Source of the DNA: Acidithiobacillus sp. AMEEHan
GTDB taxonomy: Bacteria > Pseudomonadota > Gammaproteobacteria > Acidithiobacillales > Acidithiobacillaceae
Direction of reading: 5' to 3'
Length of the DNA: 64,000 bases
Assembly: GCF_030996345.1 (NCBI RefSeq)
Contig: NZ_CP118747.1
Span: forward strand, 2,416,001 to 2,480,000
The notes beneath the pieces were generated by a model. The model was not told where the DNA came from, did not search any database, and saw only the letters and a program-made list of their open reading frames with translations. Shown piece by piece: positions 27,660-34,539 of this stretch (within the stretch, counting starts at the first letter, position 1; the number at the start of each line of letters is the position of its first letter). A program made the position numbers and the translations under genes.

Positions 27660-28433
27660 TTAGACGGCGTCAGCCGGATTGTCCAGGTGCCAGTGGCGTA
27701 ACTGCGGGTATTCCAGACACAGGTACAGGTGCTCAACCTGCTTTCTCTGCGCCTTCGTCAGCAGCAGTCGTACCCCCACCAGATCCCCGAGGGTGGCAGA
27801 GCGGGCCTCGCGCCGCACGGTCGTCACCACTGTTTCGCAGTGCCCGCAGTCGACCACATCAAACTCCACCAGCGCCGATTCGCCGGGGTCCACTGGACAA
27901 TTGGCCAGGAAAAAGCTGGCACCATCCAAACTCAGGTCATGCAAAGCCCCGGTGATACTCTCGCCGCTGCGCCGCCGCAACAGGATCTGACCATCCAGAT
28001 GCAGGCGCCGGCGCAGGCGGGTTTTGCGTTGGTAGAGTAAGGCCGGGCGACGGAAGTGGTAGACCCCTGCCGAGTCAACTCCATCCAAGTCGCTGAAAAA
28101 AGAATAAATGCCACCGGCCGTCTCGATGAATACCAACACCTTTCGGTAGTTGCCCCATACCGCGTTCCCTTGCGCCCGAAACTGCAGGCCGTGCGCATCG
28201 CAACCGATAAACGAGAAGCTGTGCCCCGGGTCTTGTGGATCGGCAGCAAAGATGACCGCGCTGCTATCGGCACCGGCCTGACACAGACTGTCGGGCACGA
28301 ATTCGACCATGCTCCGGTCAAACTCTCCTACCAAAAGCAGATGATAATCCGCAATGTTCATCCCCTTGCGCAAAGGCAGCAAGGAAACCAGCGGCGTGCG
28401 GTCCAGGGTGACATCGGTATGGGTGGTGCTCAT
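27660..28433 (-). CDS. PilZ-domain c-di-GMP receptor (YcgR-like)
   Basis: A 257-residue protein with an N-terminal YcgR-like beta domain (~residues 20-120) and a C-terminal PilZ domain. The PilZ binding motifs are present: an Arg-rich RxxxR at KTRLRRRLHLDG and DLSLDGAS as the [D/N]xSxxG motif. It should bind c-di-GMP made by the cyclases encoded just upstream. The start chosen is the ATG that overlaps the cyclase stop (ATGA), preceded by GGAGG, so translation of synthase and receptor is probably coupled. Placement directly before pilC suggests it tunes pilus assembly. The N-terminal identification is weaker than the PilZ call. Confidence 0.85.
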   Translation of the reverse strand: MSTTHTDVTLDRTPLVSLLPLRKGMNIADYHLLLVGEFDRSMVEFVPDSLCQAGADSSAVIFAADPQDPGHSFSFIGCDAHGLQFRAQGNAVWGNYRKVLVFIETAGGIYSFFSDLDGVDSAGVYHFRRPALLYQRKTRLRRRLHLDGQILLRRRSGESITGALHDLSLDGASFFLANCPVDPGESALVEFDVVDCGHCETVVTTVRREARSATLGDLVGVRLLLTKAQRKQVEHLYLCLEYPQLRHWHLDNPADAV

Positions 28434-29988
28434 CCTTCTTCCTCCGGCTTGGCGAACAGGCCCGCACGGCGTTCGGGTCGCAAATCCAAGCGCGAGTCTT
28501 GATGGAACACCCAATAGTGGCTGCGCTCATCGCGGATCGCCTTGGCTCGATAGAGGGCCTGGTCCGCGTAGCGTAACAGATTTCCCGCATCCTGCACGCC
28601 ATCATCCGGCACCCGGCAAATCCCCATGCTCAGGCGCACCGCCACCTCCCTGCCATCGGCCAGCTGGACGGGCGCATTGACTCCTGCCTCGATCTTCACC
28701 AGCACCAGCTCCAGTTCGTCGAGATTGCGGTAGCCCTCGATCAGCACGACAAACTCATCACCCCCAGGCGCGCCACGTAGTCAGTACGTCGCAGGCTGTC
28801 GCGCAGACGACGACTGATCACCTTCAGCACCTGATCACCGGCCGCATGGCCGTAGAGGTCGTTGATCGGTTTGAAATGATCGAGATCGATCATGCACACC
28901 GCCAGGGTGGAGCCATTACGCTGTGCCCGGGCCACGGCCAACTCCAGTTCGTCATCCAGGGCGCGGCGATTGGCCAGCCCGGTCAGACGATCATGGCGCG
29001 ATTCGTAATCCATCTGCTCAAAAAGTTGCTGTTCGCGACTGATATCGCGCAGAATTCCGAGAAAACGCGTCAATACCCCCGAGCCATCGCGCACCGGGAT
29101 GATGCTGATGTGGTTCCAGAATTCCGTGCCATCGCGCCGGTAGTTGAGGAGTTTGCCTTCCCAGGGCGATTCCTCCGCCAGGGCATGATCGAGCGCCGCC
29201 AGTTCCTGCATGCTGGTGTGCGGCCCCTGCAACACGCGCAACCCCTGTTCCTTGACTTCCTCCAGGCGGTATCCGGTCATCAGGGTGAAACTCTGGTTGA
29301 CATAAAGGATGCGCTTTTTGGCATCGGTCAGCACCACCGCGTCGAAGGCCGAGCGCAGACCGGCACCCAGGGTGGCCTGCAGATCATAGATCGCCACGTC
29401 TTCCAGGGTTTCCGACAGCACCCGCACGGTGGACTCCAGCAACATCTGTTCGTCCCCCGGCCAGGCAGCGCCACTGTGCCGCAACAGCAGCAACAGCCCC
29501 CACATCTCTTGCTGGCGCGCGAGCGGCAGCACTGCGGTAGAGGAAACCCCCAGACGTTGCAAGCGATCGGTCCAGGCGCGCAGGCTGGGCCCATTGTGCA
29601 GGCGAGAAGAGTAAAAGGAACGTTCTTCACGCCAGGCCAGACCCAGCGGGCCCTGACCTTCGGGCAGATCGGCATGGATCGAGCAGCGCACCCCCTCCAG
29701 GATCGGGCGGGAACCCGCCAAGGCCACCGGCTGCAGGATACCGTCGGCGTCGGGCAGGAGAATGGCGGCAAAGGAGGCGACCTGATTGTGCAGCACGCTG
29801 TCACAGAAGCGCTGCATCAGCTCCCCTTCGCTGCGCCGCGGCACGAGGATGGCGCCAATGGCCTCACGCCAGGCAAGCAGCTGCTGCTGACGACGGATAT
29901 TACTCTCCGCCTGCCCGCTACGCCCCAACAGACGCCAGAAACGAGCGCCGGGGAAATCGCCGGGGGAATCGTCAGAGGCATCAGACAT
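28430..29988 (-). CDS. GAF-PAS-GGDEF diguanylate cyclase B, frame broken at the GGDEF motif
   Basis: Domains in order: a GAF-like region (~40-190), PAS (~205-320; VVLTDAKKRILYVNQSFTLMTGY), then GGDEF (~335 onward; HDRLTGLANRRALDDELELA). The frame ends at RRTDYVARLG then VMSLSC. Adding one base to the G5 run (C5 at 28761-28765 on the plus strand) continues it as GDEFVVLIEGYRNLDELEL to TGA 28430, giving ~519 residues. The RRTD I-site, five residues before the GGDEF, is kept, so product inhibition would be expected. It is a close paralogue of the cyclase at 30073-31593. As written it is catalytically dead; a sequencing miscall is likely. Confidence 0.85.
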
Positions 29989-30072
29989 ACGGCGGAAATC
30001 CTTGCATCAGAGGATGAGCCATCATTCTAACGAAAAATAGAGAGCAACAGGGAATCGGCAGCTTTGCCGAGC

Positions 30073-31593
30073 TCATCTGCCCGCGCTTTGCCGTGCCAGT
30101 ATCCGCTCGTGGTGAAACACCCAGTACTGGACGCGCTGCTGCCGGTTCGCCTTGGCCTGATAGAGCGCCAGATCGGCATAGCGCAACAGGCGGCCGACAT
30201 CGATCTCCCCGTCCTCGGGATAGCGGCAGACACCCATGCTCAGTTGCACCGAAACCTCTTGCCCGTTGGGGAGCAGAATGGGCGCGTTGACCAGGGGCTC
30301 CAGCTTGGCCAGCAGTAGGGTCAGTTCGTTGAGGGTGCGGTAGCCCTCCAGCAGGATGACGAATTCATCGCCACCCAAACGCGCCACATAATCGGTGCGC
30401 CGCAGGCCCTCGCGCAGCCTGCGAGCCACCACCTGCAGCACATGATCACCCGCGTCGTGGCCGTAGCGGTCATTGATGGGCTTGAAGGAATCCAGATCGA
30501 TCAGGCAGACGGTAAGGCTGGAGCGATTGCGCTGCACCCGCGCCAGGGCCAGCTCCAGTTCGTCGTCTAGGGCGCGGCGGTTGGCCAGCCCGGTCAGGCG
30601 GTCGTGGCGGGCCTCGTACTCCAGTTGCCCCAAGAGCGAATGCTCGCGGCTCACGTCGCGCAAAATGCCCAGAAAATGGGTCAACTCCTCGGCGGTGTTG
30701 CGAACCGGGACGATACTCACGTGATTCCAGAACGTCTGCCCATTCCGCTGGTAATTCAGCAGCTTGCCAGACCACGCAACGCCATCGCGCAAGGCCATGT
30801 CGAGGCTCGCCAGATCCGCCAGACTGGTCTCCGGGCCTTGCAGGATCTTCAGCCCCTTGTGGCAGATCTCTTCTTCCTTGTAGCCCGTCATCAGGGTGAA
30901 GCTCTGATTGACATAGAGCACCCGCCGGTGCGTGTCGGTGAGCACCACACTGTCCAGGGCGGCGCGCAGGCCCGAGCCGAGAATGAGCTGCAACTGCTGT
31001 TTGGCGAGGTCTTCGAGGACATCGCCCAGCAACTGCGCCGTGGATTCGAGGAGCATCTGGCTGTCGCTCGCCCAGTCGCTTTGCCGCTCCCGCGCCAGCA
31101 GCAGCAGGGCCCAGACCCGCCGGCGCCGCAACACCGGCAGGATGGCCGAGGCGCGCAGCCCGCGCCGCGCCGCCTGTGCATTCCACTCCACCAAGGCCGC
31201 GGCCGAGGGGCGCTCCTCCGAGTACCAGGCGCGCCCCTCACGCCAAGCCCTCCCCAGTGGACCCTGGGTATCGCTGATGGCGGCACTCGGTGTACAGCAG
31301 ATATCACTGACGAAAGCGCGCGGACCACTCAGGGCCACCGGCTGGAGCATCGACTGAGGGCCGGGGCGCAGCAATGCCGCCAGGTCCGCCACGCCCTGTT
31401 GCACGGTGATCTCACAAAAGCGCTGCAGCACCTGCCGTTCCTCCGCCGCCGGCACCAATACCGCCGACAAGGCCCCGCGCCAAGCGAGCAACTGCTGCTG
31501 CTCGCGCACCGTCTGGTCGGCTTGCGGCGGGCGCCCCAGGCGCTGCCAGAAGCTGCGGCCAGGGGAACTCCGGGGGGCGTCGTCGCTACTCAC
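30073..31593 (-). CDS. GAF-PAS-GGDEF diguanylate cyclase A
   Basis: A 506-residue soluble cyclase making c-di-GMP from two GTP. A GAF-like sensor occupies ~40-190, PAS ~205-320 (VVLTDTHRRVLYVNQSFTLMTGY, with a NYQRNGQTFWNHVSI PAC region), and GGDEF ~335-490. The active site RLGGDEFVILLEG is intact, and the inhibitory I-site RRTD lies five residues upstream. There is no EAL domain, no transmembrane helix and no receiver domain, so it senses a cytoplasmic signal through GAF/PAS; the ligand is unknown. It lies 18 bp after the small helical protein gene in the pilin operon and is followed by its paralogue, which points to tandem duplication. Confidence 0.92.
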   Translation of the reverse strand: MSSDDAPRSSPGRSFWQRLGRPPQADQTVREQQQLLAWRGALSAVLVPAAEERQVLQRFCEITVQQGVADLAALLRPGPQSMLQPVALSGPRAFVSDICCTPSAAISDTQGPLGRAWREGRAWYSEERPSAAALVEWNAQAARRGLRASAILPVLRRRRVWALLLLARERQSDWASDSQMLLESTAQLLGDVLEDLAKQQLQLILGSGLRAALDSVVLTDTHRRVLYVNQSFTLMTGYKEEEICHKGLKILQGPETSLADLASLDMALRDGVAWSGKLLNYQRNGQTFWNHVSIVPVRNTAEELTHFLGILRDVSREHSLLGQLEYEARHDRLTGLANRRALDDELELALARVQRNRSSLTVCLIDLDSFKPINDRYGHDAGDHVLQVVARRLREGLRRTDYVARLGGDEFVILLEGYRTLNELTLLLAKLEPLVNAPILLPNGQEVSVQLSMGVCRYPEDGEIDVGRLLRYADLALYQAKANRQQRVQYWVFHHERILARQSAGR

Positions 31594-31821: not shown

Positions 31822-32358
31822 CTAGGGGGTAATCCCGCCGTTTTGGGTAATGATGACGCCCGAGGCGGTAGCGGCGCTGGGAAAGCCGGCGGCACTGCAG
31901 GCGCGGGCGATGGAGGTGCCCAGATTGCCGGCACAGCCGCTGGTGATGACTTTGACGGTGGTGGGTGACGGCCCACCGGCGCTGATGGTGCTGGCGCTGA
32001 TCTGGACTTGCCCGCACGCCGAGGCCGTACCACCGGTAACGAAGGCCGGCGTACCCTGGCCATAGACGGGGTCTGCCACGTCGTGGGCCGCCTGGCCGTT
32101 GAGGGTGTCGTAGAGATTGGTCGAGACCGCATTGCTGGTCGCGGCATAGGCATTGGCTACGGCATCCACCGCCAGTTTGAAATTGCCTGCCACGGTCTGC
32201 GCCTTGGCGGTTTCGATGTACTGGAAATACTGGGGAAGGGCGATGGCGGCGAGAATGCCGATGATCGCAATCACGATCATGAGCTCAATCAAGGTAAAGC
32301 CTTCCTCCAGGGCCGAGCCACACAGTTGCGACTCAGCGCCCAAACATTTTCCATCCAT
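31822..32358 (-). CDS. Type IV pilin B (PilA-like)
   Basis: A 178-residue prepilin. A 20-residue leader ends in EEG, and the class III signal [25 protein letters not shown] follows, with Glu5 and the hydrophobic N-terminal helix that packs in the fibre. The globular part is Ala/Ser/Thr/Gly-rich with three cysteines (SACGQV, SGCAGN, ARACSAA), so at least one disulfide is likely. It needs the PilD peptidase, encoded elsewhere. The start ATG 32358 follows GGAAAGG, which is part of a small hairpin. It is the second of two tandem pilins and has a longer leader than the first. Confidence 0.9.
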   Translation of the reverse strand: MDGKCLGAESQLCGSALEEGFTLIELMIVIAIIGILAAIALPQYFQYIETAKAQTVAGNFKLAVDAVANAYAATSNAVSTNLYDTLNGQAAHDVADPVYGQGTPAFVTGGTASACGQVQISASTISAGGPSPTTVKVITSGCAGNLGTSIARACSAAGFPSAATASGVIITQNGGITP

Positions 32359-32365
32359 GTCTCGA

Positions 32366-32451: not shown

Positions 32452-32952
32452 TTAGCTGTAAGTTACTGCACCGTCAGGAGTAATCGTTGCAGTGATCGTA
32501 TTGCTACTTGCCGAAATGCCCTGAGCTGTGAGCGCTGAAGTAATAGCATTCTTCAACCCACCCGAAGTGCAGGTACTCCAGTCCATTTTGAGAGTTAGGT
32601 TGGATGACAAATTCGGCGCAACGGTGTAATATGCGTAGCCAGTGGGCGGGGTGCCTCCACCCGTTCCATAGCCCGTTGGAGCAAAACTCACACACCCCTG
32701 AACATTGATATTGGGTATTGCAACACTCGTGGTTTGCCCAGCCGACGCCGCAGCTACAGCGGCAGTGCTTTGCGTCACAAATTGGTGGAAATCTTGTGTT
32801 ACGGTCGTTGCCTTGGAAGTCTCAATGTACTGCTCATACTGGGGAATGGCGATGGCGGCCAGAATGCCGATGATGGCAATGACGATCATCAGCTCGATGA
32901 GGGTGAAACCGGCCTCCGCGGCCCGCTTCGCTTGCTGTACTTTCATGCTCAT
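32452..32952 (-). CDS. Type IV pilin A (PilA-like, first gene of the pilus operon)
   Basis: A 166-residue prepilin with a 15-residue positively charged leader ([12 protein letters not shown]) and the signal [25 protein letters not shown]. The globular domain has two cysteines (QGCVSF, WSTCTS) that probably form the C-terminal D-loop disulfide. It is the promoter-proximal gene behind a consensus sigma-54 promoter, which is the usual arrangement for major pilins. AGGAGGAA lies eight bases before the ATG; a second in-frame ATG lies two codons later. The codon and base composition is slightly AT-richer than the rest of the operon, as is common for surface pilins. Confidence 0.9.
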
Positions 32953-33014: not shown

Positions 33015-33030
33015 TGCAAGGCTCGTGCCA
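33015..33030 (-). promoter_or_regulatory. Sigma-54 (-24/-12) promoter of the pilin operon
   Basis: On the minus strand TTGGCACG-N4-TTGCA matches the RpoN consensus (YTGGCACG-N4-TTGCW) at every specified base. Transcription would start near 33003, leaving a ~50-nt leader before the pilin A ATG. Sigma-54 promoters need an AAA+ enhancer-binding activator, PilR in the classical pilin system. Confidence 0.9.
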
Positions 33031-33124
33031 ATATATTCTCGTGCACGTAACCTCCTAATTTTATTGGGTAGTTGCACAATTCAGCAGATACTCACCTACC
33101 GATAAACCGCCTGCCCCATCGCCC

Positions 33125-33252
33125 ATGTCCCAGCTTTTCGCCTGACATCCGGGGCCGCGCCGGAAACCCGGCAAAAATGTCACAGGATTTCTTGTGACAT
33201 GCGGGAGCAAGCAGGAAATTCCGCGAAAATGTCACCGTTTTTTCTGTGACAT
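33125..33252. promoter_or_regulatory. Array of three 24-bp palindromes at an exact 52-bp period (candidate enhancer sites)
   Basis: Sites at 33125-33148 (ATGTCcC-N10-cTGACAT), 33177-33200 and 33229-33252 (both ATGTCAC-N10-GTGACAT). Starts are 52 bp apart, about five helical turns, so all face the same side of the DNA. Centres lie about -133, -185 and -237 from the predicted sigma-54 start, where enhancer-binding proteins sit. The 10-base spacers are T-rich but differ. The array is also 85-210 bp upstream of the divergent HTH/Sel1 gene, so it could act on both. Confidence 0.8.
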
Positions 33253-33335
33253 TCGCCTCTCCACCCATAGACAGGCCGCTATGGGTAGCGCATCCTTTTG
33301 CTGTCGCACGCGCGGAGGTTGCGAGGAGTACGGCG

Positions 33336-33797
33336 ATGTCCTTGGAGATTTCGGTAATGCTGGCAAGCCTGCTGACGGGAAAAACCACCAAAACGATCTA
33401 TCGCTGGGTGGACGACGGCATACTGACCCCGCGGCAGTCCGGAGCAGACGGCAAAGGCAGCTTTTTGCTGGCCCTGCCGGATCTGGAAGCGCATCTCAGC
33501 CTGCCGCTCTCCGCCGAACTGGAAGCCGCCCTGCGGAATGCCATGGAAGGCAAGGCCGCCGGTTTCCACACCGTGGCCCTGATCTTTCTGGAAGCCGGGC
33601 AGCCGGACATTGCCATCCGCTGGCTGGAGATGGCCGCCAAGAAGGGACACGCCGACGCCATGGAGTGGTTGGCCACCGGCTATCTGGAAGGGCTCGGCAC
33701 CGAGGTCAATGTCGCCCACGGCATCGAATGGCTGGGGAAGGCAGCCATGGCCGGCCATCCCGTCGCCCTCGCCAAGCTCCGCGCCCTGGACTCCTGA
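33336..33797 (+). CDS. HTH (MerR-like) and Sel1-repeat protein
   Basis: A 153-residue protein starting MSLEISVML; AGGAG lies about eight bases upstream. Residues ~10-50 resemble a winged-helix/MerR-type DNA-binding segment (LLTGKTTKTIYRWVDDGILTPRQSG, then FLLALPDLEAHL). Residues ~75-150 form two Sel1/TPR-like repeats (PDIAIRWLEMAAKKGHADAMEWLATGYLEGLG, then VAHGIEWLGKAAMAGHPVALAKL). This pairing suggests a regulator with a protein-interaction tail. It is divergent from the pilin operon across the palindrome array, so it may act in pilus control. Target and partner are unknown. Confidence 0.65.
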   Translation: MSLEISVMLASLLTGKTTKTIYRWVDDGILTPRQSGADGKGSFLLALPDLEAHLSLPLSAELEAALRNAMEGKAAGFHTVALIFLEAGQPDIAIRWLEMAAKKGHADAMEWLATGYLEGLGTEVNVAHGIEWLGKAAMAGHPVALAKLRALDS

Positions 33798-33978: not shown

Positions 33979-33997
33979 TTTTTTGAGGGTTGCGCCG

Positions 33998-34237
33998 ATG
34001 GCCAAGAACACCAGTGTGAGCTTGGGAGACCACTTCGACCAGTTTATCGCCGCCCAACTTTCCAAGGGACGCTACAGCTCCGCTACGGAAGTAGTGCGGG
34101 CAGGCTTGCGCCTGCTCGAGAACGAGGAGCAGAAACTGGAAGTATTGCGCCAGTTGATTGCGGAAGGCCGAGCCAGTGGAACTGCTGAGTACAGCTATGA
34201 GAGTTTTATGGATGAACTCGATAACGAATTGCGTTGA
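33998..34237 (+). CDS. parD: ParD-family antitoxin
   Basis: A 79-residue ribbon-helix-helix antitoxin (KNTSVSLGDHFDQFIAAQLSKGRYSSATEVVRAGLRLLENEE). The N-terminal strand and two helices bind DNA; the acidic C-terminal tail (YESFMDELDNEL) wraps the toxin. ATG 33998 is preferred over an upstream start because GAGGG sits just before it. The stop overlaps the toxin ATG by one base (TGATG), a typical coupled pair. A small inverted repeat upstream is the likely autoregulatory operator. Confidence 0.9.
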   Translation: MAKNTSVSLGDHFDQFIAAQLSKGRYSSATEVVRAGLRLLENEEQKLEVLRQLIAEGRASGTAEYSYESFMDELDNELR

Positions 34238-34539
34238 TGGGCACATTTTCCCTGACCCATGCAGCCAAAAATGATTTGCGTGGCATTGCTCGCTACACGG
34301 AAGAGCGCTGGGGGCGCGCGCAACGCCGGCACTACTTGAAGGGCTTGCATGACGCATTGCAAAGGCTGGCTGATTCTCCAGCACTCGGAATCGCTTGCGA
34401 TTATATCGAACCGGGCTTGCGCAAGCACCCTTTCCAGAGCCATGTGGTTTTTTACGACGTTATCTCCGACGAGGAAATTCAGGTGGTCCGCGTTCTGCAC
34501 AAAAGGATGGATGTTCATCAGGCTGTTTTCTCCGCCTGA
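34237..34539 (+). CDS. parE: ParE-family toxin
   Basis: A 100-residue toxin of the ParE/RelE superfamily (SLTHAAKNDLRGIARYTEERWG, then RKHPFQSHVVFYDVISDEEIQVVRVLHKRMD). ParE proteins generally poison DNA gyrase, whereas RelE relatives cut mRNA; the sequence favours ParE because the helical hairpin and the C-terminal strand carrying VVRVLH are typical of it. It is translationally coupled to parD. The pair precedes the heat-shock promoter of groES by about 80 bp in the same direction. Confidence 0.88.
   Translation: MGTFSLTHAAKNDLRGIARYTEERWGRAQRRHYLKGLHDALQRLADSPALGIACDYIEPGLRKHPFQSHVVFYDVISDEEIQVVRVLHKRMDVHQAVFSA

Follow-up and report, generated by a model that had tools for sequence, protein, structure and literature searches.

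Three palindromes stand between a type IV pilin gene and a divergent gene for a small helix-turn-helix (HTH) protein in the window (the whole 64,000-nucleotide stretch of the Acidithiobacillus sp. AMEEHan chromosome analysed here), and the question that they raise is what, if anything, reads them. The answer that we favour, and consider probable, is that they are operators of the divergent gene's product, here called HTH-Sel1, and that they control the sigma-54 promoter of the pilin.

The palindromes, the promoter, and their neighbors

The palindromes are 24 bp long and follow one another at two steps of exactly 52 bp: operator 1 (ATGTCCCAGCTTTTCGCCTGACAT, 33125..33148), operator 2 (ATGTCACAGGATTTCTTGTGACAT, 33177..33200), and operator 3 (ATGTCACCGTTTTTTCTGTGACAT, 33229..33252), none of them assigned to a strand. 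Operators 2 and 3, the latter closest to the HTH-Sel1 gene, are perfect ATGTCAC-N10-GTGACAT; operator 1, proximal to the pilin promoter, reads ATGTCCC-N10-CTGACAT, a single base change in each arm. This is the geometry described in the first-pass annotation, which also placed the sites ~130–240 bp upstream of a perfect -24/-12 promoter. That promoter (TGGCACGAGCCTTGCA, TGGCACG-N4-TTGCA; 33015..33030, minus strand) indeed matches the consensus at 12/12 positions, and the palindrome centers fall at about -133, -185, and -237 relative to the inferred pilin start. The pilin gene (32452..32952, minus strand) encodes a prepilin N-terminal methylation motif (PF07963, E 8.7e-9; TIGR02532 above cut-off) and is followed downstream by a second pilin (31822..32364, minus strand; PF07963, E 2.1e-7). 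HTH-Sel1 (33336..33797, plus strand), the proposed operator binder, has 153 aa, with a winged HTH (wHTH) at residues 4–53 and Sel1 repeats at residues 60–152.

Past the HTH-Sel1 gene lie a parD/parE-type toxin-antitoxin pair (33983-34539; PF03693, PF05016) and then genes that we take, from reading their translations, to be groES-groEL; past the first pilin are the second pilin, GGDEF genes, and a presumed pilC-like gene. The GGDEF genes downstream of the pilins are two neighbors of GAF-PAS-GGDEF type (28430-31593), the first apparently broken into two frames (28741-29988 and 28430-28747). Between operator 3 and the HTH-Sel1 gene (33263-33286) there is one more perfect 24-bp palindrome, ACCCATA-N10-TATGGGT, which shares the 7-10-7 geometry of the operators but not their sequence. 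One pair of it is altered on both sides in the metagenome-assembled relative L017; a leader hairpin and another site are both possible readings.

Across the whole 2.63-Mb genome, no further copies of the operator palindrome were found: operators 2 and 3 are the only perfect matches to ATGTCAC-N10-GTGACAT, the next-best matches have two mismatches, and at three or fewer mismatches there are 50 matches versus 37 for a reversed-pattern control. Plain palindrome counts were uninformative, as shuffled sequences yield similar numbers, and we therefore scored recurring palindromes; the window locus scores 37.4, compared to at most 19.2 in 40 shuffles. A CRISPR reading, already rejected in the first-pass annotation, was dropped because the inner ten bases differ from site to site and the sites are tied to the promoter.

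All three palindromes recur at 52-bp steps in Acidithiobacillus sp. YTS05 (L016) and in L017, the two closest relatives; the arms of operator 1 are invariant there, and the promoter is kept as well. Over the three genomes, 41/42 arm positions are invariant, versus 43/86 positions for the inner tens and the inter-site DNA taken together (Fisher p = 8e-9); constrained arms with free inner bases are the signature of dimer binding sites. Near-invariant in the same alignment is a 13-mer between the promoter and the operators (TTCAGCAGATACT, 33080..33092, no strand), a possible site for another factor, PilR or an architectural protein. It could be argued that no protein reads the palindromes and that they are hairpins (of RNA or DNA), recombination sites, or remnants of a 52-bp tandem duplication, as the 28-bp stretches between sites 1 and 2 and between sites 2 and 3 are partly alike, and many cassettes have T-rich inner bases on one strand. 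The invariance of the arms amid diverged inner and intervening DNA makes this extremely unlikely, as do two observations described below: the spacing changes by whole turns across cassettes, and the half-site tracks a protein helix.

The cassette across the Acidithiobacillaceae

Full-length matches to HTH-Sel1 are present in 24/29 Acidithiobacillaceae genomes, and the genome of the window has a second cassette (C1:2265206-2265676) whose HTH-Sel1 is 54% identical. The pilin is present in 23 genomes of the family, and 23/23 of these also have HTH-Sel1 (hypergeometric p ~5e-5, by hand). At most loci the two genes are divergent and 0.35–0.5 kb apart, and their shared intergenic region nearly always contains two to seven palindromes spaced by whole helical turns. 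The palindrome sequence varies by cassette (TGTCAC, TGTCTACC, TGGCGC, TTTCATC, TTTCCACG, TTTCCGTG). Conservation at orthologous pilin loci, which the first-pass annotation had set as a check on its reading, gives a split outcome: it holds family-wide for the architecture, and for the exact sequence in the two closest relatives only. The recurring-palindrome score exceeds all 40 shuffles at 23/26 loci; weaker arrays are still visible at L053 (1/40 shuffles) and L036 (4/40 shuffles). By the same score the locus in genome G022 has no operator array, and its HTH is degenerate (ACYRL), apparently a joint loss. In this genome (L047/L074) pilin and HTH-Sel1 are separated by additional genes, seemingly a toxin-antitoxin-like pair.

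A sigma-54 element was found in 27/27 upstream regions scanned, matching 9–12 of 12 positions, and the proximal operator keeps to one of two positions, -131 to -146 or -166 to -192. On the other side, an extended -10 element of HTH-Sel1 (TGCTAgAcT, TGCTATAxT) abuts the operators or sits between them at six loci (L032, L033, L034, L035, L038, and L054). Divergent autoregulated regulators are common, and in several relatives the operators directly adjoin the promoter of the regulator, which would suit a reading in which they serve only HTH-Sel1 autoregulation and play no part at the pilin. We regard this as very unlikely: where HTH-Sel1 is displaced by 1.7–4.4 kb (L075, L087, and L090) the array remains at the pilin promoter, the two genes co-occur in 23 genomes, and even a distant homologue adjoins a pilin. 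This homologue (L212, in G666) is the one full-length HTH-Sel1 found outside the family among 398 phylum genomes; among 274 genomes of the class outside the family, only the Sel1 part was found. It sits a short way downstream of a type IV pilin gene, in the same orientation, and has the helix RRTWWRRIADG; no palindrome array was found at its locus. A DNA search of plasmids returned matches to pilin N-termini only.

The first-pass annotation noted that a 52-bp step would place bound dimers on one face of the DNA, and the family bears this out. Site spacings cluster near 31.5, 42, 52, and 64 bp, mostly falling within 30–34, 41–44, 52, and 64–66 bp (approximately three, four, five, and six turns). 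The array at L049 has seven sites with spacings of 32, 31, 32, 31, 32, and 31 bp; spacings of 20 in L050 and 39 in L087 are poorer fits. For 40 spacings, with weak sites flanking the arrays left out, the vector strength at 10.5 bp is R = 0.78 with a phase of 0.3 bp, a value matched by 0/20000 null draws; on family-mean spacings the test gives p = 0.006, weaker than the other statistics. Whole-turn phasing puts the sites on one helix face and extends the 52-bp observation to the family.

HTH-Sel1 and the sequence of its operators

HTH-Sel1 consists of an HTH and Sel1 repeats (PF08238, E 5e-10; 40 bits versus a cut-off of 30.7), and its AlphaFold model has a mean pLDDT of 92.9. Its structure matches are Sel1-type structures (Z up to 16.9), and as these filled the full-length fold searches, the HTH was modelled alone. 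Foldseek then placed a BldC-DNA structure first, with CvkR, RacA-DNA, and MtaN among the top matches and gpNu1 also listed, although all E-values are weak (best 0.06). Pfam HTH_17 is found in 17/27 HTH-Sel1 homologues, and AlphaFold models give the wHTH fold. The predicted recognition helix (DSSP on the model; residues 18–26, TKTIYRWVD) is encoded at 33387..33413 on the plus strand. HTH-Sel1 differs from classical MerR proteins in having Sel1 repeats in place of the C-terminal coiled-coil dimerisation and effector domain.

The half-sites share a T-x-x-C skeleton when aligned by distance to the dyad, with one cassette, L053, shifted by one base. Residue 23 of HTH-Sel1 goes with the half-site (R with TGTC, H with TGGC, N with TTTC), and residue 22 with the bases that follow (H with TTCA, N or I with TTCC). 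Operator distance correlates with helix distance (Mantel r 0.61 for 25 loci, 0.48 for 16 non-redundant loci). It also correlates with Sel1-domain distance (r 0.44–0.57), as shared ancestry predicts, and once this is removed the operator-helix partial correlation is 0.32–0.37, still significant. On a tree built without the helix, each trait changes one or two times; with so few evolutionary events behind the covariation, the Mantel p-values overstate independence, and the evidence amounts to a handful of events rather than 25.

The first-pass annotation placed the palindromes where an AAA+ activator binds and pointed to PilR-type activators. On this rival proposal, PilR, or some other NtrC-type activator, would occupy them as its upstream activating sites, and its phased dimers would loop to the sigma-54 polymerase. 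Several points favor it. The positions from -133 to -237 suit a sigma-54 enhancer, the promoter is 12/12, the genome has rpoN and a PilS-PilR-PilD locus, the PilR HTH diverges fast within the family, and the hallmark of Pseudomonas PilR sites (TGT...AGA, GTCT elements; PMC6058289) resembles the ATGTC of the window. Several observations make the proposal improbable. G009 and G010 have TGGCGC operators, versus TTTCATC in G001, G011, G016, and G017, despite near-identical PilR helices (both [SC]PQSFALR): the operator changes between cassettes and the PilR recognition helix is nearly constant. The correlation of operator with HTH-Sel1 helix persists given PilR (partial r 0.42–0.57), whereas that of operator with PilR helix given HTH-Sel1 is approximately zero or negative. 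PilR as the cause of operator differences is thus rejected by the Mantel tests. As read from this covariation, what the operator sequence tracks is a pair of residues in the recognition helix of HTH-Sel1 rather than PilR. Of the annotation's interpretation, the layout, the sigma-54 promoter, the same-face spacing, and a link to the divergent HTH/Sel1 gene are supported, and the reading of the palindromes as PilR sites is not.

Studies of two other proteins point to the same residues. In BldC the G of a TpG step is read by Arg30, which precedes Trp31, and RacA reads DNA in the same way (PMC5859096). The R23-W24 of HTH-Sel1 with the TGTC of the window sites is the same arrangement, and the corresponding contact is predicted. 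The HTH profile also found lambda TerS (E 0.1; helix RTIQNW, of the N-W type), a match noticed after the fact. The specificity residues of lambda TerS are 20 and 24 (PMC4669245), residue 20 being the equivalent of HTH-Sel1 residue 22, and its repeated R sites, which read CGTTTCCGTTCT and CGTTTCCTTTCT, contain the TTTCC of the NW-type operators; base pairs 55–63 of the R site are reported to be contacted by TerS (PMC9026076). The known base-reading residues of BldC and lambda TerS thus coincide with the covarying positions of HTH-Sel1, and Y22 and R23 are the candidate specificity residues in the window.

These similarities have limits. As in BldC, RacA, and other MerR-like wHTH proteins, HTH-Sel1 has a predicted wHTH, an Arg-Trp in the recognition helix, a TpG half-site, and probably multimers along the DNA; unlike them, it has Sel1 repeats rather than a coiled coil or nothing, and its target is a sigma-54 promoter. 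BldC binds 9-bp direct repeats head-to-tail, whereas the HTH-Sel1 operators are inverted repeats, separate palindromes whole turns apart. Lambda TerS at cosB shares with it a wHTH class with an RTIxNW helix, repeated sites, helix changes that re-code the site, and TTTCC in the site, but TerS packages DNA, has no Sel1 domain, and its R sites are not evenly phased palindromes.

PilR in the Acidithiobacillaceae

The case against PilR as the reader is strengthened by the state of its own HTH. In 29 PilRs from other gammaproteobacterial families, the sister family of the same order included, the recognition helix is nearly invariant (SFRALRYRLKKLG / ISFRALRYRLKKLG). In the Acidithiobacillaceae it is eroded to ISLQSLELRLSRL, ICPQSFALRLTRA, or IGQRSLALRLQL, the conserved basic residues are lost family-wide, and the mean net charge is +1.4 compared to +4.7 outside the family. 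Pfam HTH_8 is detected in 22/22 PilRs outside the family and 11/22 inside. Mean identity within the family is 0.46 for the HTH, 0.69 for the AAA+ domain, and 0.73 for the receiver, versus 0.62, 0.68, and 0.64 outside. Seven other sigma-54 activators tested in this genome all keep an HTH_8 match. By these comparisons, the family with the HTH-Sel1 arrays is also the one in which the would-be enhancer-binding domain of PilR is decayed. The loss of the PilR helix and the gain of HTH-Sel1 may, however, be a coincidence that happened once, on a single branch.

In this assembly pilR, within a PilS-PilR-PilD gene order (L062), is frameshifted at the end of the AAA+ domain (G000:C1 ~774627, L062:2151), either a sequencing error or a real lesion; the gene is intact in relatives. 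The frameshift, too, counts against PilR as the reader. Another sigma-54 activator, L068, is also apparently frameshifted. The sigma-54 contact motif of PilR is kept in the genus as GAFTGA, the family consensus being GAYSGA. The same pair of sigma-54 activator genes is found at G000:C1 14291-17842 and 2550376-2553927, near both contig ends, which suggests that the overlap of a circular chromosome was left untrimmed.

Discussion

HTH-Sel1 itself is very likely what binds the palindromes, as dimers, judging by the covariation and the conserved arms. One dimer would occupy each palindrome, its recognition helix reading ATGTC, with R23, followed by the near-invariant W24, reading the G of the TpG step, and the dimers would lie whole helical turns apart on one DNA face. 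From this array HTH-Sel1 would control the sigma-54 promoter of the pilin. It would probably control its own promoter too, as the last operator abuts the HTH-Sel1 -10 in several relatives. As HTH-Sel1 has no sigma-54 AAA+ domain, it cannot open a sigma-54 promoter itself, and some enhancer-binding protein must still act.

In the likeliest mode, which we think a fair prospect though short of an even one, HTH-Sel1 would supply the enhancer recognition, PilR having no canonical DNA-reading helix in this family, and the Sel1 domain would recruit the AAA+ machinery of PilR to the pilin promoter. The fuller version of this idea, offered tentatively, is a split enhancer-binding protein: PilR would have given up sequence-specific reading, and a cassette-encoded HTH-Sel1 adaptor with a phased array would bring it to each pilin promoter. 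The next-likeliest mode has the opposite sign. HTH-Sel1 would repress the pilin and itself, and PilR, its DNA-binding helix lost, or another activator would work from solution or elsewhere, perhaps through the 33080-33092 block. The loss of the PilR helix, the conserved 13-mer between promoter and array, and the HTH-Sel1 extended -10 abutting or lying between operators in six relatives are all compatible with repression. The array, however, is 130–240 bp upstream of the pilin start, beyond the reach of polymerase, so that simple occlusion is unlikely, and the proximal operator keeps its position as enhancers do; repression strikes us as possible but rather unlikely.

The ingredients are each of a known kind: a divergent regulator with operators, a sigma-54 pilin promoter, and a MerR-like HTH. 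The locus resembles PilS/PilR–sigma-54 control of pilA in Pseudomonas aeruginosa, Geobacter, and Dichelobacter in its -24/-12 pilin promoter, upstream sites, and PilS-PilR; it departs from those systems in that its 24-bp palindromes follow a divergent HTH-Sel1 gene and its PilR helix lacks the conserved RALRYRLKKLG residues. Some enhancer-binding proteins, such as Helicobacter FlgR and Chlamydia CtcC, can work without a DNA-binding domain. The PilR described here, like them, keeps its receiver and AAA+ domains and has no canonical DNA-reading helix, but here there is in addition a separate, locus-encoded protein, predicted to bind DNA, with phased sites. Our literature search found nothing on an HTH-Sel1 regulator of pilins or on the HTH-Sel1 architecture, and nothing on its phased arrays where a sigma-54 promoter drives a pilin, on the re-coding of its operator together with its helix, or on joint decay of the PilR helix; no NCBIfam model names HTH-Sel1. 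PilR/PilS appear in a 2025 survey of Acidithiobacillia sigma-54, but pilins are absent from its text (PMC12194929).

If the operator assignment is right, one bacterial family holds a natural set of regulators matched to their operators, with a short helix and its palindrome having changed together, and the reading code of MerR/BldC-like helices would be directly testable. It would also illustrate how a partner could aim a sigma-54 activator whose normal DNA reading is gone, and how bacteria with several pilins, biomining species included, could control each one separately. Were the split enhancer-binding protein real, every pilin cassette would have a private, re-codable address.
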